Below are positions 19,502 to 24,858 of a stretch of 25,799 bases of DNA, one piece after another. The DNA is taken from IMG/VR virus record IMGVR_UViG_3300037882_000411, positions 1 to 25,799 of that record, one strand, 5' to 3'. The notes beneath the pieces were generated by a model that searched no databases, was not told where the DNA came from, and saw only the letters and a list, made by a program, of their open reading frames with translations. Within the stretch, counting starts at the first letter, position 1; every line of letters starts with the position of its first letter. Source of the DNA: a virus. A program made the position numbers and the translations under genes.

Positions 19502-20154
19502 CCTTCCGCAAGACGCAGCCGAATTTCAGTCGCGGCGTTCTGGCGCCTGAACTCTATTCGCGCTTCGATGTCGATGCCTATGGCGCGGCAGTCAAGCAGG
19601 CGACGAATGTGGTCGTGCTCAAGTTCGGCGGTCTGACCAAGCGCCCGGGTACGCGCCTGGTTGCCGAGGTGCTTGATCCGACTGACGGCAATCGGCTTGT
19701 TCCTTTCCAGTTCTCGCTCACGCAAACCTATGCGCTGGAAATGGGGCAAGGCTATATGTCGCCCTGCGCCAATGGTGGCCGCGTGGTCGAGCCTGAACTG
19801 GCGATTGTCACCGTGTCGAACGCTGCCGCTGCCGAGATCGAGGTGCTTTATCACGAACTGGTAGTCGATGATTTCATCTACATCACCGGGATTGCCGGCG
19901 AGATTGGCGACTTGCTCAATGGCCGCGCATGGCAGGTGCAATCCGTGGTCGATGCCGATCACTTCACGATCAACGCTGACACGGCCACACTGGCCGCGTT
20001 CACGACGGCAACCGGCGGCATCACACGCGCCGCTCCTGCACCGCCTCCGACCCCGCCTGTGGTTCCCGCTCCCGTACCTGATCCAGCCCCGCCCGAGGAT
20101 TACTTTGGCGGCGGCATAGACTGGCTCACAAGCGATGGCACGGCGATCCGCTGA
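19498..20154 (+). CDS. Tail tubular protein B (T7 gp12-like), N-terminal half
   Basis: A 218-residue GTG-started protein. TFRKTQPNFSRGVLAPELYS, QATNVVVLKFGGLTKRPGTR and VPFQFSLTQTYALEMGQGYM are characteristic of the N-terminus of gp12-like nozzle proteins. Residues about 105-180 hold an inserted beta domain (YHELVVDDFIYITGIAGEIG...). The protein then ends in a Pro-rich linker (residues about 183-203) and a short tail. In related phages this continues into the next domain within one protein. Here it stops with TGATG into the following gene, in a different frame. Confidence 0.82.
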   Translation: MTFRKTQPNFSRGVLAPELYSRFDVDAYGAAVKQATNVVVLKFGGLTKRPGTRLVAEVLDPTDGNRLVPFQFSLTQTYALEMGQGYMSPCANGGRVVEPELAIVTVSNAAAAEIEVLYHELVVDDFIYITGIAGEIGDLLNGRAWQVQSVVDADHFTINADTATLAAFTTATGGITRAAPAPPPTPPVVPAPVPDPAPPEDYFGGGIDWLTSDGTAIR

Positions 20155-21968
20155 TGGGTATTGCGCGCATCTACAAGGTCGGCTCGCCCTTCAACGGCGT
20201 CGAATTGCCCGAGATCGACTTCGAGCAAACGGCGGATACGATGTATTTCGCCCATATCGATCATGCGCCTTCGAAGCTGGTGCGCGGCGGGCATACTGAC
20301 TGGACGTTCTCGGACATCACCTTCGGGCCGACGATTGACGCGCCGACGGGTTGCACCGGGACGCCGACGATTGCTAACACCGACACCGAGAACACCGGCA
20401 ACAACTATTTTCCCCAGCCGGGGACCTACATCATCACGGCGGTCAACGATGACACCGGGCAGGAAAGCCGTGGCTCGAATGAAAGCACGGCGACGAATGA
20501 CCTGACGCTCAAGCGCAATTACAACGACGTGACGTGGGATGCCGTGACGGGAGCCACGCGATACAACATCTACAAGGCCGAGAATTCGCAGTTCTTCGGC
20601 TATATCGGCACAACCGATGGCCTGACATTCCGCGATGACAATATCGGGCCAGCCTTGGATCGCGCGCCGCCGCAAGCCTATAACCCATTCCCCGGCGCTG
20701 ACGATTACCCCTCGACCGTCACCCTGTTCGAGCAGCGGTCACTCTGGGCGCGCTCTCGCAATGTGCCGCATGGCATCTGGGGGTCGCGCACGGCTCAGGC
20801 GGAAAGCATGGATCGATCGCGGCCCTTGCGCGCTGATGATAGCCTTGCGCTGACCATCGTTGCGGGCCGGGTCAACTCGGTCAATCAGCTCGTATCGTCC
20901 ACCTCGTTGTTGGCGCTGACTTCGGATTCGATCTTCACCATCGACGGCGACGGCTCTGGGGGCGTTCTCAGTGCGGCTTCGGCCCCTGCGGCACGACGTC
21001 ACCTTGGCATCGGTGGATCGCGCCTGTCGCCTCTGGTGGTCGATAACGTGGTGTTCTTTGCGCCATCGGTCGGGTCGTCTGTCCGCTCGATTGGTTACAG
21101 CTTCGAAATCGACGGCTTCAAGTCGAACGATGTGTCGATCTTTTCGCCGCATTTCTTCGAGAGCCTTGAAATCGTGTCGTGGTGCTATGCCCGCGAACCC
21201 CGCTCGCTGGTCTGGGCCGCGCGCTCGGATGGCAAACTGCTGTGCTTCACTTGGGAGCAGGAGCAAAACGTCTGGGGCTGGACCTTCTGCGAGACGGACG
21301 GCGATGTGAAATCGGTTTGTTCGATCAGTGAGGACGGTGAGGATCGCGTCTATCTGCTGGTCGATCGCATGGTTGACGGCGTGTCGAAGCGGTTTGTCGA
21401 GCGCATGGCCTCGCACAAGTGGGACGATGTTGCCGACACCTGCTTCATGGATTGCGCGATCTCGGCTGAGTTCGCCACGGCGCGCGCTACGTTCTCCGGC
21501 CTGTGGCATCTCGAGGGGCGCACTGATGTCTGCGGGATAGTCGATGGCGTGGCTGTCGAGGATCTGACGGTGACGAATGGCTCTGTGACGCTGCCTGAGC
21601 ACGTCGGCACCGGGAGCAAGGTGTCGTTCGGTATTCCGTTCCAGGTCGATATTGAAACGCTGCCACTGCGCATTGAGGCCAAGGACACCGGGGCCAACAT
21701 TGGCCGGCGTCAACAGGTCGGTGAGATCGTGCTGTCGCTGCGCAATACGCGGTCGGTTCTGGCTGGCATCGACGATACGCACCTCTATCTGGTTAAGTCG
21801 CGCACCTCGGAAGCCTATGGCTCGCCAGATGATCTCATGAACGGCGACGATTACGTGGTTGCCGCTGCCAACAAGGCGGGCACCGAGATCAAGGCGCATA
21901 TTCGCCAGACTGCACCGCTGCCGCTGACCCTGCTGGGCGTGTCGCTCGATGCGGTGGTGAATGGCTGA
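20154..21968 (+). CDS. Tail tubular protein B (T7 gp12-like), C-terminal part
   Basis: A 604-residue protein. The N-terminus (GIARIYKVGSPFNGVELPEI, then DTMYFAHIDHAPSKLVRGGH) corresponds to the interior of gp12-like nozzle proteins. Residues about 60-180 form a fibronectin-III-like insertion (WDAVTGATRYNIYKAENSQF, then FGYIGTTDGLTFRDDN). The rest is the beta-propeller-like nozzle body: RSLWARSRNVPHGIWGSRTA, LLALTSDSIFTIDGDG, VWAARSDGKLLCFTWEQEQN and VWGWTFCETDG. It would form the hexameric tail tip. Overlap with the preceding half (TGATG) suggests re-initiation. Confidence 0.85.
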   Translation: MGIARIYKVGSPFNGVELPEIDFEQTADTMYFAHIDHAPSKLVRGGHTDWTFSDITFGPTIDAPTGCTGTPTIANTDTENTGNNYFPQPGTYIITAVNDDTGQESRGSNESTATNDLTLKRNYNDVTWDAVTGATRYNIYKAENSQFFGYIGTTDGLTFRDDNIGPALDRAPPQAYNPFPGADDYPSTVTLFEQRSLWARSRNVPHGIWGSRTAQAESMDRSRPLRADDSLALTIVAGRVNSVNQLVSSTSLLALTSDSIFTIDGDGSGGVLSAASAPAARRHLGIGGSRLSPLVVDNVVFFAPSVGSSVRSIGYSFEIDGFKSNDVSIFSPHFFESLEIVSWCYAREPRSLVWAARSDGKLLCFTWEQEQNVWGWTFCETDGDVKSVCSISEDGEDRVYLLVDRMVDGVSKRFVERMASHKWDDVADTCFMDCAISAEFATARATFSGLWHLEGRTDVCGIVDGVAVEDLTVTNGSVTLPEHVGTGSKVSFGIPFQVDIETLPLRIEAKDTGANIGRRQQVGEIVLSLRNTRSVLAGIDDTHLYLVKSRTSEAYGSPDDLMNGDDYVVAAANKAGTEIKAHIRQTAPLPLTLLGVSLDAVVNG

Positions 21969-22426
21969 TGGATAGCCGGGTCCGGTTGGCTCCGGCGCAA
22001 TCGAAGCATATCGGCAGGATCGCGCGCAACATGCGGGCCATCGACGCGGAAGAGTGTGCCGCGTTCGGTCGCGCGCCAAAGTCTGCGCTGCGGTTCTCGC
22101 TGTTCTCAAGCACAAAGGCATGGACGGCAATGGTCGATGGCAAGCCTGAAGCAATGTTCGGCGTGGTCGTGGAAAGCGCTTTGGACCAAGAGGCCGCGCC
22201 GTGGTTCCTCGGGACGGATGAAGTCTATCGGCATGGGCGCGAGTTGCTGATGTATGGTCCGGGCATGGTGTCGCGGCTGTGCGATTCTAATTGGAAGCTG
22301 GCCAACCTAGTGTCCGCGAAGAACATGCGGGCAATCCGCTTGCTGGATCGCTGGGGCTTCACGGTGGCGGACGATGTGCAAATGATTGGCGGTGTTCCCT
22401 TCCGACGTTTTGAGAGGGCCTGCTGA
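21968..22426 (+). CDS. Gp13-like protein (DUF2833-type, GNAT-like)
   Basis: A 152-residue protein resembling T7 gp13 (DUF2833) and GNAT-fold proteins. IGRIARNMRAIDAEECAAFG opens the fold and APWFLGTDEVYRHGRELL lies in the middle. NLVSAKNMRAIRLLDRWGF is the typical terminal GNAT strand/helix (Asn, Arg, Leu, Gly-Phe pattern). Gp13 is needed for assembling the internal core proteins in T7. TGATG coupling on both ends places it just before the internal-core genes, as in T7. Acetyltransferase activity is not implied. Confidence 0.82.
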   Translation: MDSRVRLAPAQSKHIGRIARNMRAIDAEECAAFGRAPKSALRFSLFSSTKAWTAMVDGKPEAMFGVVVESALDQEAAPWFLGTDEVYRHGRELLMYGPGMVSRLCDSNWKLANLVSAKNMRAIRLLDRWGFTVADDVQMIGGVPFRRFERAC

Positions 22427-22929
22427 TGTGCATTCCTGCTGCCGCCGCTGCCCTTGTCGCCGCCGGAATGTCCGCTATGGGAACCGGCGTTGCCGCGCTG
22501 TCCGCCAAGGCTCAAGGTGACTATCAGGCCAAGATCGCTGAACGCAACGCGGCAATGGAGCGCGAGGCATCGCAGCAGGATCAGCAGAACACACGCGAGG
22601 AAGCGCTGGCCCATTACCGCAACGTCGCCAAGCTGAAAGGCGAGCAGATCGTCGGTGCTGCGGCGAATGGCGTGGGTGTGGACTTCGGCACGGCGGCTGA
22701 CACGCTGGCCGATACCGACATGCTGGCGCGCGAAGATACCAAGCGCATCTATTCGCAGGCTGGGCAAAAGATGAAGGGCCGCTCCATTGCCGCGTCGAAC
22801 TACATGGGCGAGGCTTCGGCGCAGCGATCGGCTGGAACGGCTGCGCTGGTCGGCGGCGCGTTCAATATGGGTTCGACGATCCTCGGCGGGGTTTCGCAGT
22901 ACAAGAAACTCAAGGCGGGGAGCAAGTAA
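22426..22929 (+). CDS. Internal virion protein B (T7 gp14-like)
   Basis: A 167-residue protein starting MCIPAAAAALVAAGMSAMGT, a hydrophobic N-terminus like T7 gp14 (also Met-Cys). A long charged helix follows (YQAKIAERNAAMEREASQQD, QQNTREEALAHYRNVAKLKG), then GAAANGVGVDFGTAADTLAD. A second apolar region (GTAALVGGAFNMGSTILGGV) lies near the C-terminus. In T7, gp14 is ejected first and forms an outer-membrane channel for DNA entry. TGATG coupling to gp13-like. Confidence 0.85.
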   Translation: MCIPAAAAALVAAGMSAMGTGVAALSAKAQGDYQAKIAERNAAMEREASQQDQQNTREEALAHYRNVAKLKGEQIVGAAANGVGVDFGTAADTLADTDMLAREDTKRIYSQAGQKMKGRSIAASNYMGEASAQRSAGTAALVGGAFNMGSTILGGVSQYKKLKAGSK

Positions 22930-24858
22930 TTGCCGCGCATTCCTACATATCAGCCCAATCAGGTCGGCCCGGTCGAAAGCACTGGCGCCCGGTTCCGTGC
23001 CGCCGATAATGGCGGCGGGATTGGTGCGGCTATCGGACAGGGATTGCAGGGCCTGGGCAAGGCTGGGGCTGATTTCATCACGGCGCAGGATCAGATTCAG
23101 GATCAGTTCGATGATACTTATGCGCGTCGTTTCGCATTGGATTTCGATGCCGCAACAAAGCCGGTGATGACGCAATATAGCGCGCAACAGGGCAAGAATG
23201 CCATCGATGCCGCAATGCCGACGCAAGAGGCGCTGACGAAACTGCGTGAGGAAACGCTGGCTAAGGCCAGCAACCCGCGCATGAAGCGTTACCTCGAAGA
23301 GCGCCTTGCCGAGCCGTACAGCCGTTATTCGTCGGGCATTGTCAGCCATTCACTCGGCCAGCAACAGGTCATGGCGGAAGAGACGGCACTGTCTGAAAAG
23401 GCTCTGGCGATCAATGATGCCGCCGGGTCTTATGCCAATCCTCAACTGGCCGCGACTAAGAAGGCTGAGGCGCTGGATGCTGTGCGCCGTGTGGGCGCGC
23501 TCAAGGGTTGGGACACGAAGAAACTCAAGGCCGAAGAGCTGGCGGCGACGACGGCCATTCATACGACTGCTTTTGATCTGATGCGGAGCGGTGCAAAAGA
23601 AGACATTGACCGTGATGCTGCCTATCTCGCCGCGCACAAGGACGAGATGACCGCCACTGCCTATGCCAATGCGCTGGGTGATCTGGCCGAGCCGCTGCGT
23701 AAGCGCGAGGACACTGCCGACTTCTGGCGCGCGATTACCCCGACTGCCGACGCTGCCCCCGCTCCTGGCGGTACGCCTGCGTCCGGTGCTCCGGTTCGGC
23801 AGGCAACTGCGGCTGAGATCAAGCCGGCGCTGCTGGGCGTGTTCGGCAAAGGAACCTACGTCGGGGATAATGCCAAGCATTCGAAATATACGTCGAGCGG
23901 CAAGGTGTCTGACCATACTGTCGATCGTGCGCTTGATTTCGTCCCCCCCGGCGGCATGGGGAAATACACCACTTCGCAGGCTGAGGCGCTGATCACGTCG
24001 GAACTGGCACGACGCGGCCTTCGCATTCGCCGCAATGCCAATGGAACGCCGCAATTCTTTGGCCCCGGTCGTCATGCGAAAAATCCGGGTGATCACGATG
24101 ACCACTATCATGTGGCATGGGAAGTTGATCCCAAGGCGACGGGCGGACAGGGCGTTGACAATGAGCGTCCGCAGCAATTTGACAAGGATCAGGTCTATAA
24201 CCGCATTGACGCGCTGGCCGCGAAAGAGAAGTGGTCGCCTGAAAAGATCGAGCGCGTGAAGGCGATGGGCGATCAAGAGATTCGCCGCAATGAGGAGCTG
24301 GACAGCAGGCAAAAGCGCGCCGCTGACGAAGCTGCTGCCGATATCATGCTGGGCAAAGGCTCTGGCTTCACCTCGAAGAACCTGATCCCGGCTGAAACGT
24401 GGTCGAAAATGTCTGTCGGCGCGCGCGCGTCTGCTGAGGCGGCGATTGAGCGCAACCTTGCGCCGGTTGCCGCAAAGCCGAACGGGCCAGCGGCAATGTT
24501 GCTTAACCAGATGAAGACACTGATGCCGCAAGAGTTTGCCAATCAGGACTTGAGCAAGATCGTTGGCCAAGTCTCGCAGGCCGAACTTGATACATTCCTG
24601 ACCGAGCAGACCAAGATCAAGCGCGATAATGGCGACATCGTGAAGCGGCGCACCGAGATCAATGCCGTCGTCAACTCACAATCCACGTTCGGCGGGCTCA
24701 AACTGAACGATGCTGAGCGGGCATCTGTGGCGCAAATGATGGAGGCGCAGGAAGTTGCCGCAATCAGTGGTGGCAAGACCCCTGACCGTGCGGCTTCGTA
24801 CAGGGCGGCAATCGGTATTGTCATGATGTCGCGCGCCGTAACGCCTCAGGGCAACTGA
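22930..24858 (+). CDS. Internal virion/ejection protein with M15-like peptidase motif
   Basis: A 642-residue TTG-started protein directly abutting the previous TAA; GGGGAG upstream is the ribosome-binding site. Residues 1-260 are long, Ala/Glu-rich helices as in T7 gp15-like ejection proteins. Residues 265-290 are a Pro/Ala linker. Residues about 295-400 resemble the M15 D-Ala-D-Ala/L-Ala-D-Glu peptidase fold: SDHTVDRALDF gives Ser327, His329 and Asp336, and GDHDDHYHVAWE gives Asp391 and His392/His394, matching SxHxxxxAxD and the terminal H-x-H. The usual Gly in the first motif is Asp here. Residues 410-642 are helical again. It probably cuts peptidoglycan during genome ejection. Helical ejection role: good; catalysis: likely. 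Confidence 0.82.
   Translation: MPRIPTYQPNQVGPVESTGARFRAADNGGGIGAAIGQGLQGLGKAGADFITAQDQIQDQFDDTYARRFALDFDAATKPVMTQYSAQQGKNAIDAAMPTQEALTKLREETLAKASNPRMKRYLEERLAEPYSRYSSGIVSHSLGQQQVMAEETALSEKALAINDAAGSYANPQLAATKKAEALDAVRRVGALKGWDTKKLKAEELAATTAIHTTAFDLMRSGAKEDIDRDAAYLAAHKDEMTATAYANALGDLAEPLRKREDTADFWRAITPTADAAPAPGGTPASGAPVRQATAAEIKPALLGVFGKGTYVGDNAKHSKYTSSGKVSDHTVDRALDFVPPGGMGKYTTSQAEALITSELARRGLRIRRNANGTPQFFGPGRHAKNPGDHDDHYHVAWEVDPKATGGQGVDNERPQQFDKDQVYNRIDALAAKEKWSPEKIERVKAMGDQEIRRNEELDSRQKRAADEAAADIMLGKGSGFTSKNLIPAETWSKMSVGARASAEAAIERNLAPVAAKPNGPAAMLLNQMKTLMPQEFANQDLSKIVGQVSQAELDTFLTEQTKIKRDNGDIVKRRTEINAVVNSQSTFGGLKLNDAERASVAQMMEAQEVAAISGGKTPDRAASYRAAIGIVMMSRAVTPQGN

Follow-up and report, generated by a model that had tools for sequence, protein, structure and literature searches.

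A predicted M15-like zinc peptidase in the variable enzyme slot of an epsilon15/BPP-1-like podovirus ejection protein

Gene content and phage lineage

The window, an IMG/VR virus record analysed over its full 25,799 bases, carries a podovirus structural operon that fills its right half. The operon encodes, in order, a head-tail connector (Pfam E value, 9.7e-136), a protease, a GP7-type major capsid protein (E value, 1.6e-89), tail proteins (PHROG 394 and 376), internal virion proteins matching PHROG 308 and 418, a protein of 642 amino acids, and the start of a large LPD22 protein (Table 1). The reading frame, length, and position of the 642-residue protein are as an earlier note on this DNA had given them, and the TTG start is backed by relatives that begin MPR/LPR/VPR...YQPxQVGPV.

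Table 1. Coordinates of the ejection operon and of the parts of the 642-residue protein in the window
Feature	Coordinates	Strand	Evidence or remark
Tail (nozzle-type) protein gene, synteny anchor	20154..21968	+	PHROG 376, E 2.2e-141; 62 viral and 17 genome relatives
Internal virion protein gene	21968..22426	+	PHROG 308, E 1.4e-28
Internal virion protein gene, weakly T7 gp14-like	22426..22929	+	PHROG 418, E 2.4e-27; Pfam T7_gp14 E 0.012, below cut-off
Ejection (internal virion) protein gene, 642 aa, TTG start, gp15 position of ejection operon	22930..24858	+	PHROG 1044
N-terminal helical scaffold, residues 1-269	22930..23736	+	Residues 1-255 match 36/41 relatives at E<=1e-3
Pro/Ala-rich linker, residues 270-292, start of variable slot	23737..23805	+	Sequence; relatives diverge from about here too
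M15-like (LAS-type) predicted zinc peptidase module, residues 293-400	23806..24129	+	1LBU profile match; domain model pLDDT 87.8; 52 viral loci
SDHTVDRALD, residues 327-336, predicted zinc ligands H329 and D336	23908..23937	+	S, H, A, D invariant in 18 aligned domains
HDDHYH, residues 389-394, predicted zinc ligand H394, candidate catalytic H389 and H392	24094..24111	+	Three His invariant in 18 aligned domains
C-terminal helical scaffold, residues 414-636, from PQQFD (PRxWD-like) join	24169..24837	+	Matches 23/38 relatives with C part, E<=1e-3
Start of large adjoining (gp16-position) protein, cut by contig end	24898..25797	+	Pfam LPD22, E 1.6e-12; no hydrolase in part present

The same gene order is found in TL-2011b, BPP-1, epsilon15, and Pseudomonas phage AF, with BPP-1 having one annotated internal virion gene rather than the two seen in the window, TL-2011b, epsilon15, and phage AF, and epsilon15 having an additional gene before that of the large protein. 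Because of this match the phage is placed in an epsilon15/BPP-1-like lineage and not among the T7-type phages named in the earlier note. Compared with T7, moreover, the module lies in the protein at the gp15 position rather than in that at the gp16 position. The syntenic gene of the four named relatives bears an endolysin annotation or a transglycosylase note, and "endolysin" is also the label of PHROG 1044 and of several records, which would fit an ordinary lysis endolysin mistaken for a virion protein. Such a misreading is highly improbable: the gene sits inside the structural operon, flanked by the internal virion protein genes on one side and by that of the large LPD22 protein on the other, an arrangement shared by the four named relatives; its enzyme module is enclosed by two long helical halves; and gp15 of epsilon15 is annotated as a head protein.

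The tail proteins closest to that of the window in bacterial genomes (17 loci) belong to Novosphingobium, Croceibacterium, and sphingomonad MAGs, which makes a sphingomonad the probable host. Separately, Limnohabitans phage DC33 (PQ492659) is filed in its taxonomy line under Inoviridae but has a 39-kb genome with podovirus-like tail and ejection proteins; the label looks wrong.

Scaffold of the ejection protein

Residues 1 to 207 of the 642-residue protein match positions 1 to 204 of the 900-position PHROG 1044 profile (E value, 2.7e-18). The full-length model is mostly helical over residues 35 to 269 and 419 to 635, with pLDDT values above 90 in the N-terminal helices from about residue 50, and the linker around residues 270 to 292 is rich in proline; the protein is thus built as the earlier note had described it, from helical and Pro-rich parts. 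The C-terminal part resumes in most relatives at a PRxWD-like join, located at residues 381 to 434. Over most of residues 283 to 409, the pLDDT value of the full-length model falls below 50 because its alignment mixes different modules, and the domain in the slot was judged solely from a separate domain model.

When the model was compared with structures of ejection machinery using VIA-align, residues 49 to 635 aligned with residues 93 to 605 of the T7 core chain 9jyy_G (Z score, 7.7; 213 aligned residues; rmsd, 19.6), and the PhiM1 ejectosome chain 8vb2_E gave a Z score of 7.8 (266 aligned residues; rmsd, 9.8). T7 core chains gave Z scores of 6.7 to 7.7 with large rmsd values, a level that helical chains of no relation also reach, and the comparison weakly suggests a gp15-like scaffold. 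The protein probably sits in the virion and is ejected into the host, as judged from its protein family and synteny. No SLT transglycosylase domain, including the T7 gp16 type, was matched in the protein by Pfam or by local models.

Identity of the module between the helical halves

A profile built from 18 rows of the domain found the Streptomyces albus DD-peptidase 1LBU as the best of 177,635 PDB sequences (E value, 0.0038), followed by Hedgehog chains at E values of about 0.4. A 5-row profile of other relatives, an overlapping set, retrieved 1LBU at an E value of 0.012. In the alignment, SRHMYGHAAD of 1LBU carries the SxHxxGxAxD motif and GHNDHTH the HxxHxH motif (HNDHTH against HDDHYH in the window), with the ligands aligned. 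MepA-type (M74) peptidases also have an HxH end, which made membership there a candidate; the best profile match was 1LBU.

The AlphaFold model of the separate domain had a pLDDT value of 87.8 and a pTM value of 0.82. In the structure prediction, a check named in the earlier note, the fold ranks with LAS peptidases at weak scores: Foldseek listed mostly VanY, LdcB/DacB, VanXY, and Hedgehog, with no E value below 0.13, and VIA-align Z scores to LAS peptidases were 4.8 to 6.8. The top VIA-align row was VldE (Z score, 6.8; rmsd, 3.6; 89 aligned residues), with the L-Ala-D-Glu endopeptidase ChiX at 5.4, LysECD7 at 4.9, and 1LBU at 4.8. The rmsd values to the LAS rows were 3.3 to 4.1, all Z scores were under 8, and unrelated rows with similar Z scores were intermixed.

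None of the M15 or peptidase models of Pfam, NCBIfam, and PHROG matched the domain or the whole protein. No family reached the curated cut-off of Pfam Peptidase_M15_3 or Peptidase_M15_4 for either sequence, and PF08291 was absent from the whole window. Single-sequence searches with the whole protein or the domain against Pfam, NCBIfam, PDB sequences (including phmmer), and the phage collection returned no M15 relative. The relationship emerged only through profiles and through relatives on plasmids or viral contigs, and the plasmid relatives themselves matched Pfam M15 models only at E values of 0.045 to 0.16, below cut-off. The module is called M15-like and is not filed in the Pfam M15 family because these cut-offs were not reached. 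Together, the profile matches and the domain model support reading residues 293 to 400 as an M15-like, LAS-type predicted zinc peptidase.

Predicted zinc site

The two motifs reported in the earlier note, SxHxxxxAxD and H-x-H, are present in the protein as S327-x-H329-x6-D336, which includes A334, and H389-x2-H392-x-H394. They far exceed chance: the strict pattern (SxHx4AxD, 30 to 70 residues, HxxHxH) arose in 0 of 100,000 shuffles of the protein, and a loose HxxxxxxD...HxH pattern arose in 510 of 100,000. Among 7,405 frames of at least 100 amino acids from 109 sources, the strict pattern occurred in 22 sources, namely, the window, 20 loci that had been fetched for carrying the domain (L004 to L022 and L025), and one genome match (L108). 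The S, H, A, and D of the first motif and the three histidines of the second, among them every predicted ligand, do not vary in 18 aligned domains taken from different carriers, a conservation that suggests selection for the site. The replacement of the conserved glycine of the first motif by aspartate, also pointed out in the earlier note, is found at D332; this position is tolerant, being Asn in L009 and Asp in L140.

At the place of the transition-state arginine, R138 in 1LBU, the window has no Arg, and the candidate residue there, K316, aligns with a lysine of the tape-measure domains. In VldE, the arginine that steadies the transition state is R294, and zinc is bound by H301, D308, and H375 (PMC11667670). 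By comparison with VldE, the zinc ligands of the window domain would be H329, D336, and H394.

Relatives of the module on plasmids, viral contigs, and bacterial genomes

In tblastn searches, the closest named relatives of the module were encoded on sphingomonad conjugative plasmids (best match, 37% identity; E value, 2e-5), next to TrbC/VirB2, VirB3, or VirB4 genes. In three of the four plasmid proteins, a Pfam SLT domain precedes the M15-like domain (E values, 4.5e-14, 2.3e-14, and 3.4e-10); the fourth protein is shorter and has a separate transglycosylase gene nearby. The VirB1-like fusions lie at L004:7467-8471, L005:3472-4500, and L007:3467-4417, and an SLT and an M15-like domain in a single chain would make a possible two-bond wall opener for conjugation.

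The module is common in viral contigs, with 18 loci from one scan and 52 from a second, the contigs being partly shared. Across 60 viral loci (all 52 plus 8 from the first scan), the frames that carry the domain were 480 to 1,777 residues long, and the ejection scaffold was present in none of these loci. Five viral carrier proteins were compared with PHROG models; four matched tape-measure families and one (L008) matched none. Plasmid and tape-measure relatives alike belong to machinery that crosses the cell wall, which favors the proposed peptidase role. Within 397 genomes of one sphingomonad family, the domain was detected in 17, in 7 of them with an E value below 1e-24. The whole window protein matched six of the genomes, with four of the six matches including the N-terminal scaffold, and in two genomes the matches stopped near residue 290 and restarted near residues 402 to 411. 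No locus with both the domain and the scaffold was seen among the 397 genomes (loci of about 3.2 kb each).

The large adjoining protein

LPD22 and MuF domains are characteristic of polyvalent proteins, which phages are believed to inject along with their DNA. The main murein opener might be a transglycosylase carried by another virion component, such as the part of the large adjoining protein beyond the contig end, with the M15-like module as an accessory. The contig stops 313 residues into the frame of this protein, leaving most of it unseen, and in its plasmid relatives the module is joined to an SLT domain. An opener of this kind is nevertheless unlikely, as three complete relatives of the large protein contain LPD22, and MuF_C in two of them, and no hydrolase, and local models of five enzyme classes found no match in the 38 longest downstream frames of more than 250 residues (drawn from 42 scaffolds). 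The transglycosylase in the adjoining protein that the earlier note had named as evidence against its claim was found neither in the 313 residues in the window nor in the three complete relatives, and the candidate is unsupported to that extent.

Among relatives, the large adjoining proteins at L029:14915-21667 and L059:14973-21683 carry LPD22 together with a MuF C-terminal domain. The product of the gene next to the L026 ejection gene contains an SLT trace (E value, 0.08) and a PBECR1 nuclease-like trace (E value, 8.6e-5), both below cut-off.

Slot content among scaffold relatives

Relatives of the ejection protein were gathered using the neighboring tail protein as the anchor, giving 62 viral and 17 genome loci and, with the window, 80 sources. 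The scaffold was present at an E value of at most 1e-3 in 53 of these; in the other 27, the contigs ended too soon or other genes occupied the place (e.g., in L031, L033 to L035, L038, and L044). These six loci encode the same tail protein and, near the place of the ejection gene, a quite different protein that starts with MAVSTTNA. Removal of 11 near-copies (95%) reduced the 53 scaffolds to 42, and removal of L058, a contig-end fragment of 108 amino acids, left 41. The 304-residue L083 was counted as truncated, and L083 and L058 stand outside the 40-row alignment and Pfam scan.

In blastp comparisons of the window protein with its relatives (E value of at most 1e-3), the N-terminal part matched 36 of 41 and the C-terminal part 23 of 38, but the slot matched 0 of 40. 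As the flanks are homologous, the slot is not, and its content varies, the enzyme is best described as a plug-in module. At the same threshold, Pfam assigned M23 to 21 of the 40 scaffolds, SLT to 9, and Phage_lysozyme2 to 1; the remaining 9, among them the window, had no match to these families.

Local models divided the 41 nonredundant scaffolds, including the window, into finer classes. SLT modules fill nine slots and a second transglycosylase-like module fills six, one of them truncated; one member of the latter class, L027, matches PDB 9udh, a "lytic transglycosidase" (E value, 1.5e-5). M23 modules with HxH fill 10 slots, with the histidine of HxxxD kept only in L054, L056, and L095 and replaced by serine in seven. 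The seven ejection genes with this serine and an intact HxH are those of L029, L030, L032, L039, L043, L077, and L078, and two such modules scanned singly gave Pfam E values of 7e-22 and 4e-26. A further 13 slots hold an M23-like remnant with neither HxxxD nor HxH. They make up a whole clade (L062, L096, L097, L072, L099, L070, L071, L061, L064, L066, L074, L057, and L103), as if its M23-like domain had turned into a structural part. One slot contains a tail lysozyme (L084), one has no recognizable enzyme (ejection protein L026:12832-17315), and the M15-like module is found in the window alone.

The full-length model matched 37 viral models at an E value of at most 0.001, many of them uncharacterized or unnamed; the names among them, which are annotations only, included LT_GEWL, peptidase M23 (two), putative lysin, SLT, lysozyme, phage tail lysozyme (two), and NlpC/P60. 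A common lysozyme fold may unite SLT, the second transglycosylase-like module, and tail lysozyme, and both M15 and M23 belong to the LAS type. The slot classes therefore differ as families and, between two groups, in chemistry, and are not five unrelated folds.

The reading of the earlier note, an ejection protein with a built-in M15-like peptidase where relatives carry a transglycosylase, is supported by domain homology, by synteny, and by the relatives with a transglycosylase at the same place. The window is the only scaffold with an M15-like module, but a peptidase in the slot is not unique to this phage, given the M23 modules with HxH in 10 of 41 scaffolds.

At least one metal ligand is missing in 20 of the 23 M23-type modules, which suggests that dead enzymes are tolerated in this slot. 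The window module might likewise have kept its M15-like fold and motifs while no longer being active, serving as a spacer or murein-binding element. The ligand-less clade, the seven modules lacking the first histidine, the L026 scaffold, and the lack of Arg at the expected position all lend some weight to this reading. We regard it as improbable because the predicted zinc ligands and the two other motif histidines are all kept and are invariant in the 18 domains of different carriers, and because D332 recurs in L140.

Signs of module exchange

Two metagenome contigs, L001 with an SLT module and L054 with an M23 module, share 96.5% DNA identity along 5,183 bases that extend to about codon 149 of the ejection gene and diverge from there, although chimerism of either contig is possible. 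In the scaffold tree (N-terminal part, 41 rows), L067, an SLT carrier, lies inside a supported group of second-type transglycosylase-like modules. The seven slot classes need 8 changes on the tree, with a minimum possible of 6 and a shuffled mean of 23.7, which indicates that the classes pass down mainly by inheritance, with occasional exchange. The window sits on a long branch grouped with SLT carriers (92/84, below the star threshold).

At about even odds, the ejection proteins of this podovirus lineage have a position-fixed slot that exchanges murein-cutting modules of different chemistry, drawn from a pool shared with siphovirus tape measures and the VirB1-like conjugation proteins of related hosts, with the chemistry tuning entry to the host wall or growth state. 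The exchanged modules would comprise two or three families of glycan cleavers along with M23 peptidases, M15-like peptidases, and, going by annotation names, NlpC/P60.

Proposed role in entry

We estimate a probability of roughly 80% that the 642-residue protein is an ejection protein of an epsilon15/BPP-1-like podovirus in which a slot between helical halves holds an M15-like zinc peptidase that would cut murein peptides on ejection. Ejection proteins pass out of the head by way of the tail and form an envelope-spanning channel (PMC8954989). The two helical halves would be the conserved scaffold, probably part of the channel through the periplasm, with the murein hydrolase slot held between them on flexible linkers. 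Ejection would bring the predicted peptidase to the murein, where it may cut the peptide part locally as the channel forms, allowing the channel to pass. The phage probably cuts murein peptides rather than glycan; packaging, ejection, zinc binding, and activity are all inferred, and the bond cut may be the D-Ala-mDAP cross-link, as the earlier note suggested, or the L-Ala-D-Glu stem bond.

The TM4 motif mt3 lies in a tape-measure protein that meets the wall at entry, and it helps infection of stationary cells; without it, plating on stationary cells falls by about half (PMC1796659). T7 gp16 mutants, as cited in the same source, are most affected as cells enter stationary phase. By analogy with mt3, a similarly conditional role in stationary cells might be expected for the window module.

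Shuffling of domains is already known both within phage lysins and from one ejection protein to another (PMC8954989; PMC10684548), and movement of the hydrolase domain between gp16 and gp15 homologs has been described (PMC8954989); the word "ejection" occurs 0 times in the main text of PMC10684548. By title and abstract, no paper reported a podovirus ejection protein with an M15-like module or a multi-enzyme slot, in a search that missed most subscription papers and bioRxiv. Within the literature searched, which gives weak evidence of absence, an M15-like peptidase in such a protein appears to be new, as does a fixed slot holding so many enzyme families within a single lineage. According to a 2018 review, endopeptidase domains of virion-associated lysins occur almost exclusively in phages of Gram-positive bacteria (PMC6116005). 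Here, peptidase-type modules (1 M15-like and 10 M23 with HxH, 3 of the latter with both motifs) occur in ejection proteins of phages associated with sphingomonads, which are Gram-negative. With a constant scaffold and a module that varies at one join, the question of glycan versus peptide cleavage becomes testable with natural phages that differ mainly there.

Comparison with known systems

The nearest counterparts in gene arrangement are BPP-1 Bbp11, epsilon15 gp15, and TL-2011b gp37, which share with the window the gene order, the PHROG 1044 N-terminal scaffold, and an enzyme inside the ejection protein. The enzyme differs: TL-2011b gp37 carries an SLT domain (Pfam E value, 3.6e-7), and Bbp11 and epsilon15 gp15 have, by their record notes, a soluble-lytic-transglycosylase-type domain, whereas the window has the M15-like module. 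T7 gp16/gp15 and the gp15 homolog of K1E and K1-5 are likewise ejection proteins with a murein hydrolase, but theirs cleave glycan. The hydrolase is on gp16 in T7 and on the gp15 homolog in K1E and K1-5 (PMC8954989); that of the window, unlike the T7 enzyme, is in the gp15-position protein.

The S. albus G DD-peptidase 1LBU and M15/LAS peptidases share HxxxxxxD, HxxHxH, and the LAS-type predicted fold with the module, although 1LBU is a cellular enzyme and the similarity is remote, not reaching Pfam M15 cut-offs. TM4 mt3 and pneumococcal VldE, the latter described as having a LAS-type domain (PMC11667670), resemble the module in this domain type, a relation seen through fold scores below 8. 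The carrier of mt3 is a siphovirus tape measure with a mycobacterial host, whereas that of the window module is a podovirus ejection protein. By sequence, the closest named relatives are the VirB1-like fusions of Sphingobium conjugative plasmids (P0002, P0003, and P0005; best identity, 37%), which belong to conjugation operons and pair the peptidase-like domain with a transglycosylase in one protein, whereas the window module stands in its slot without an SLT partner.
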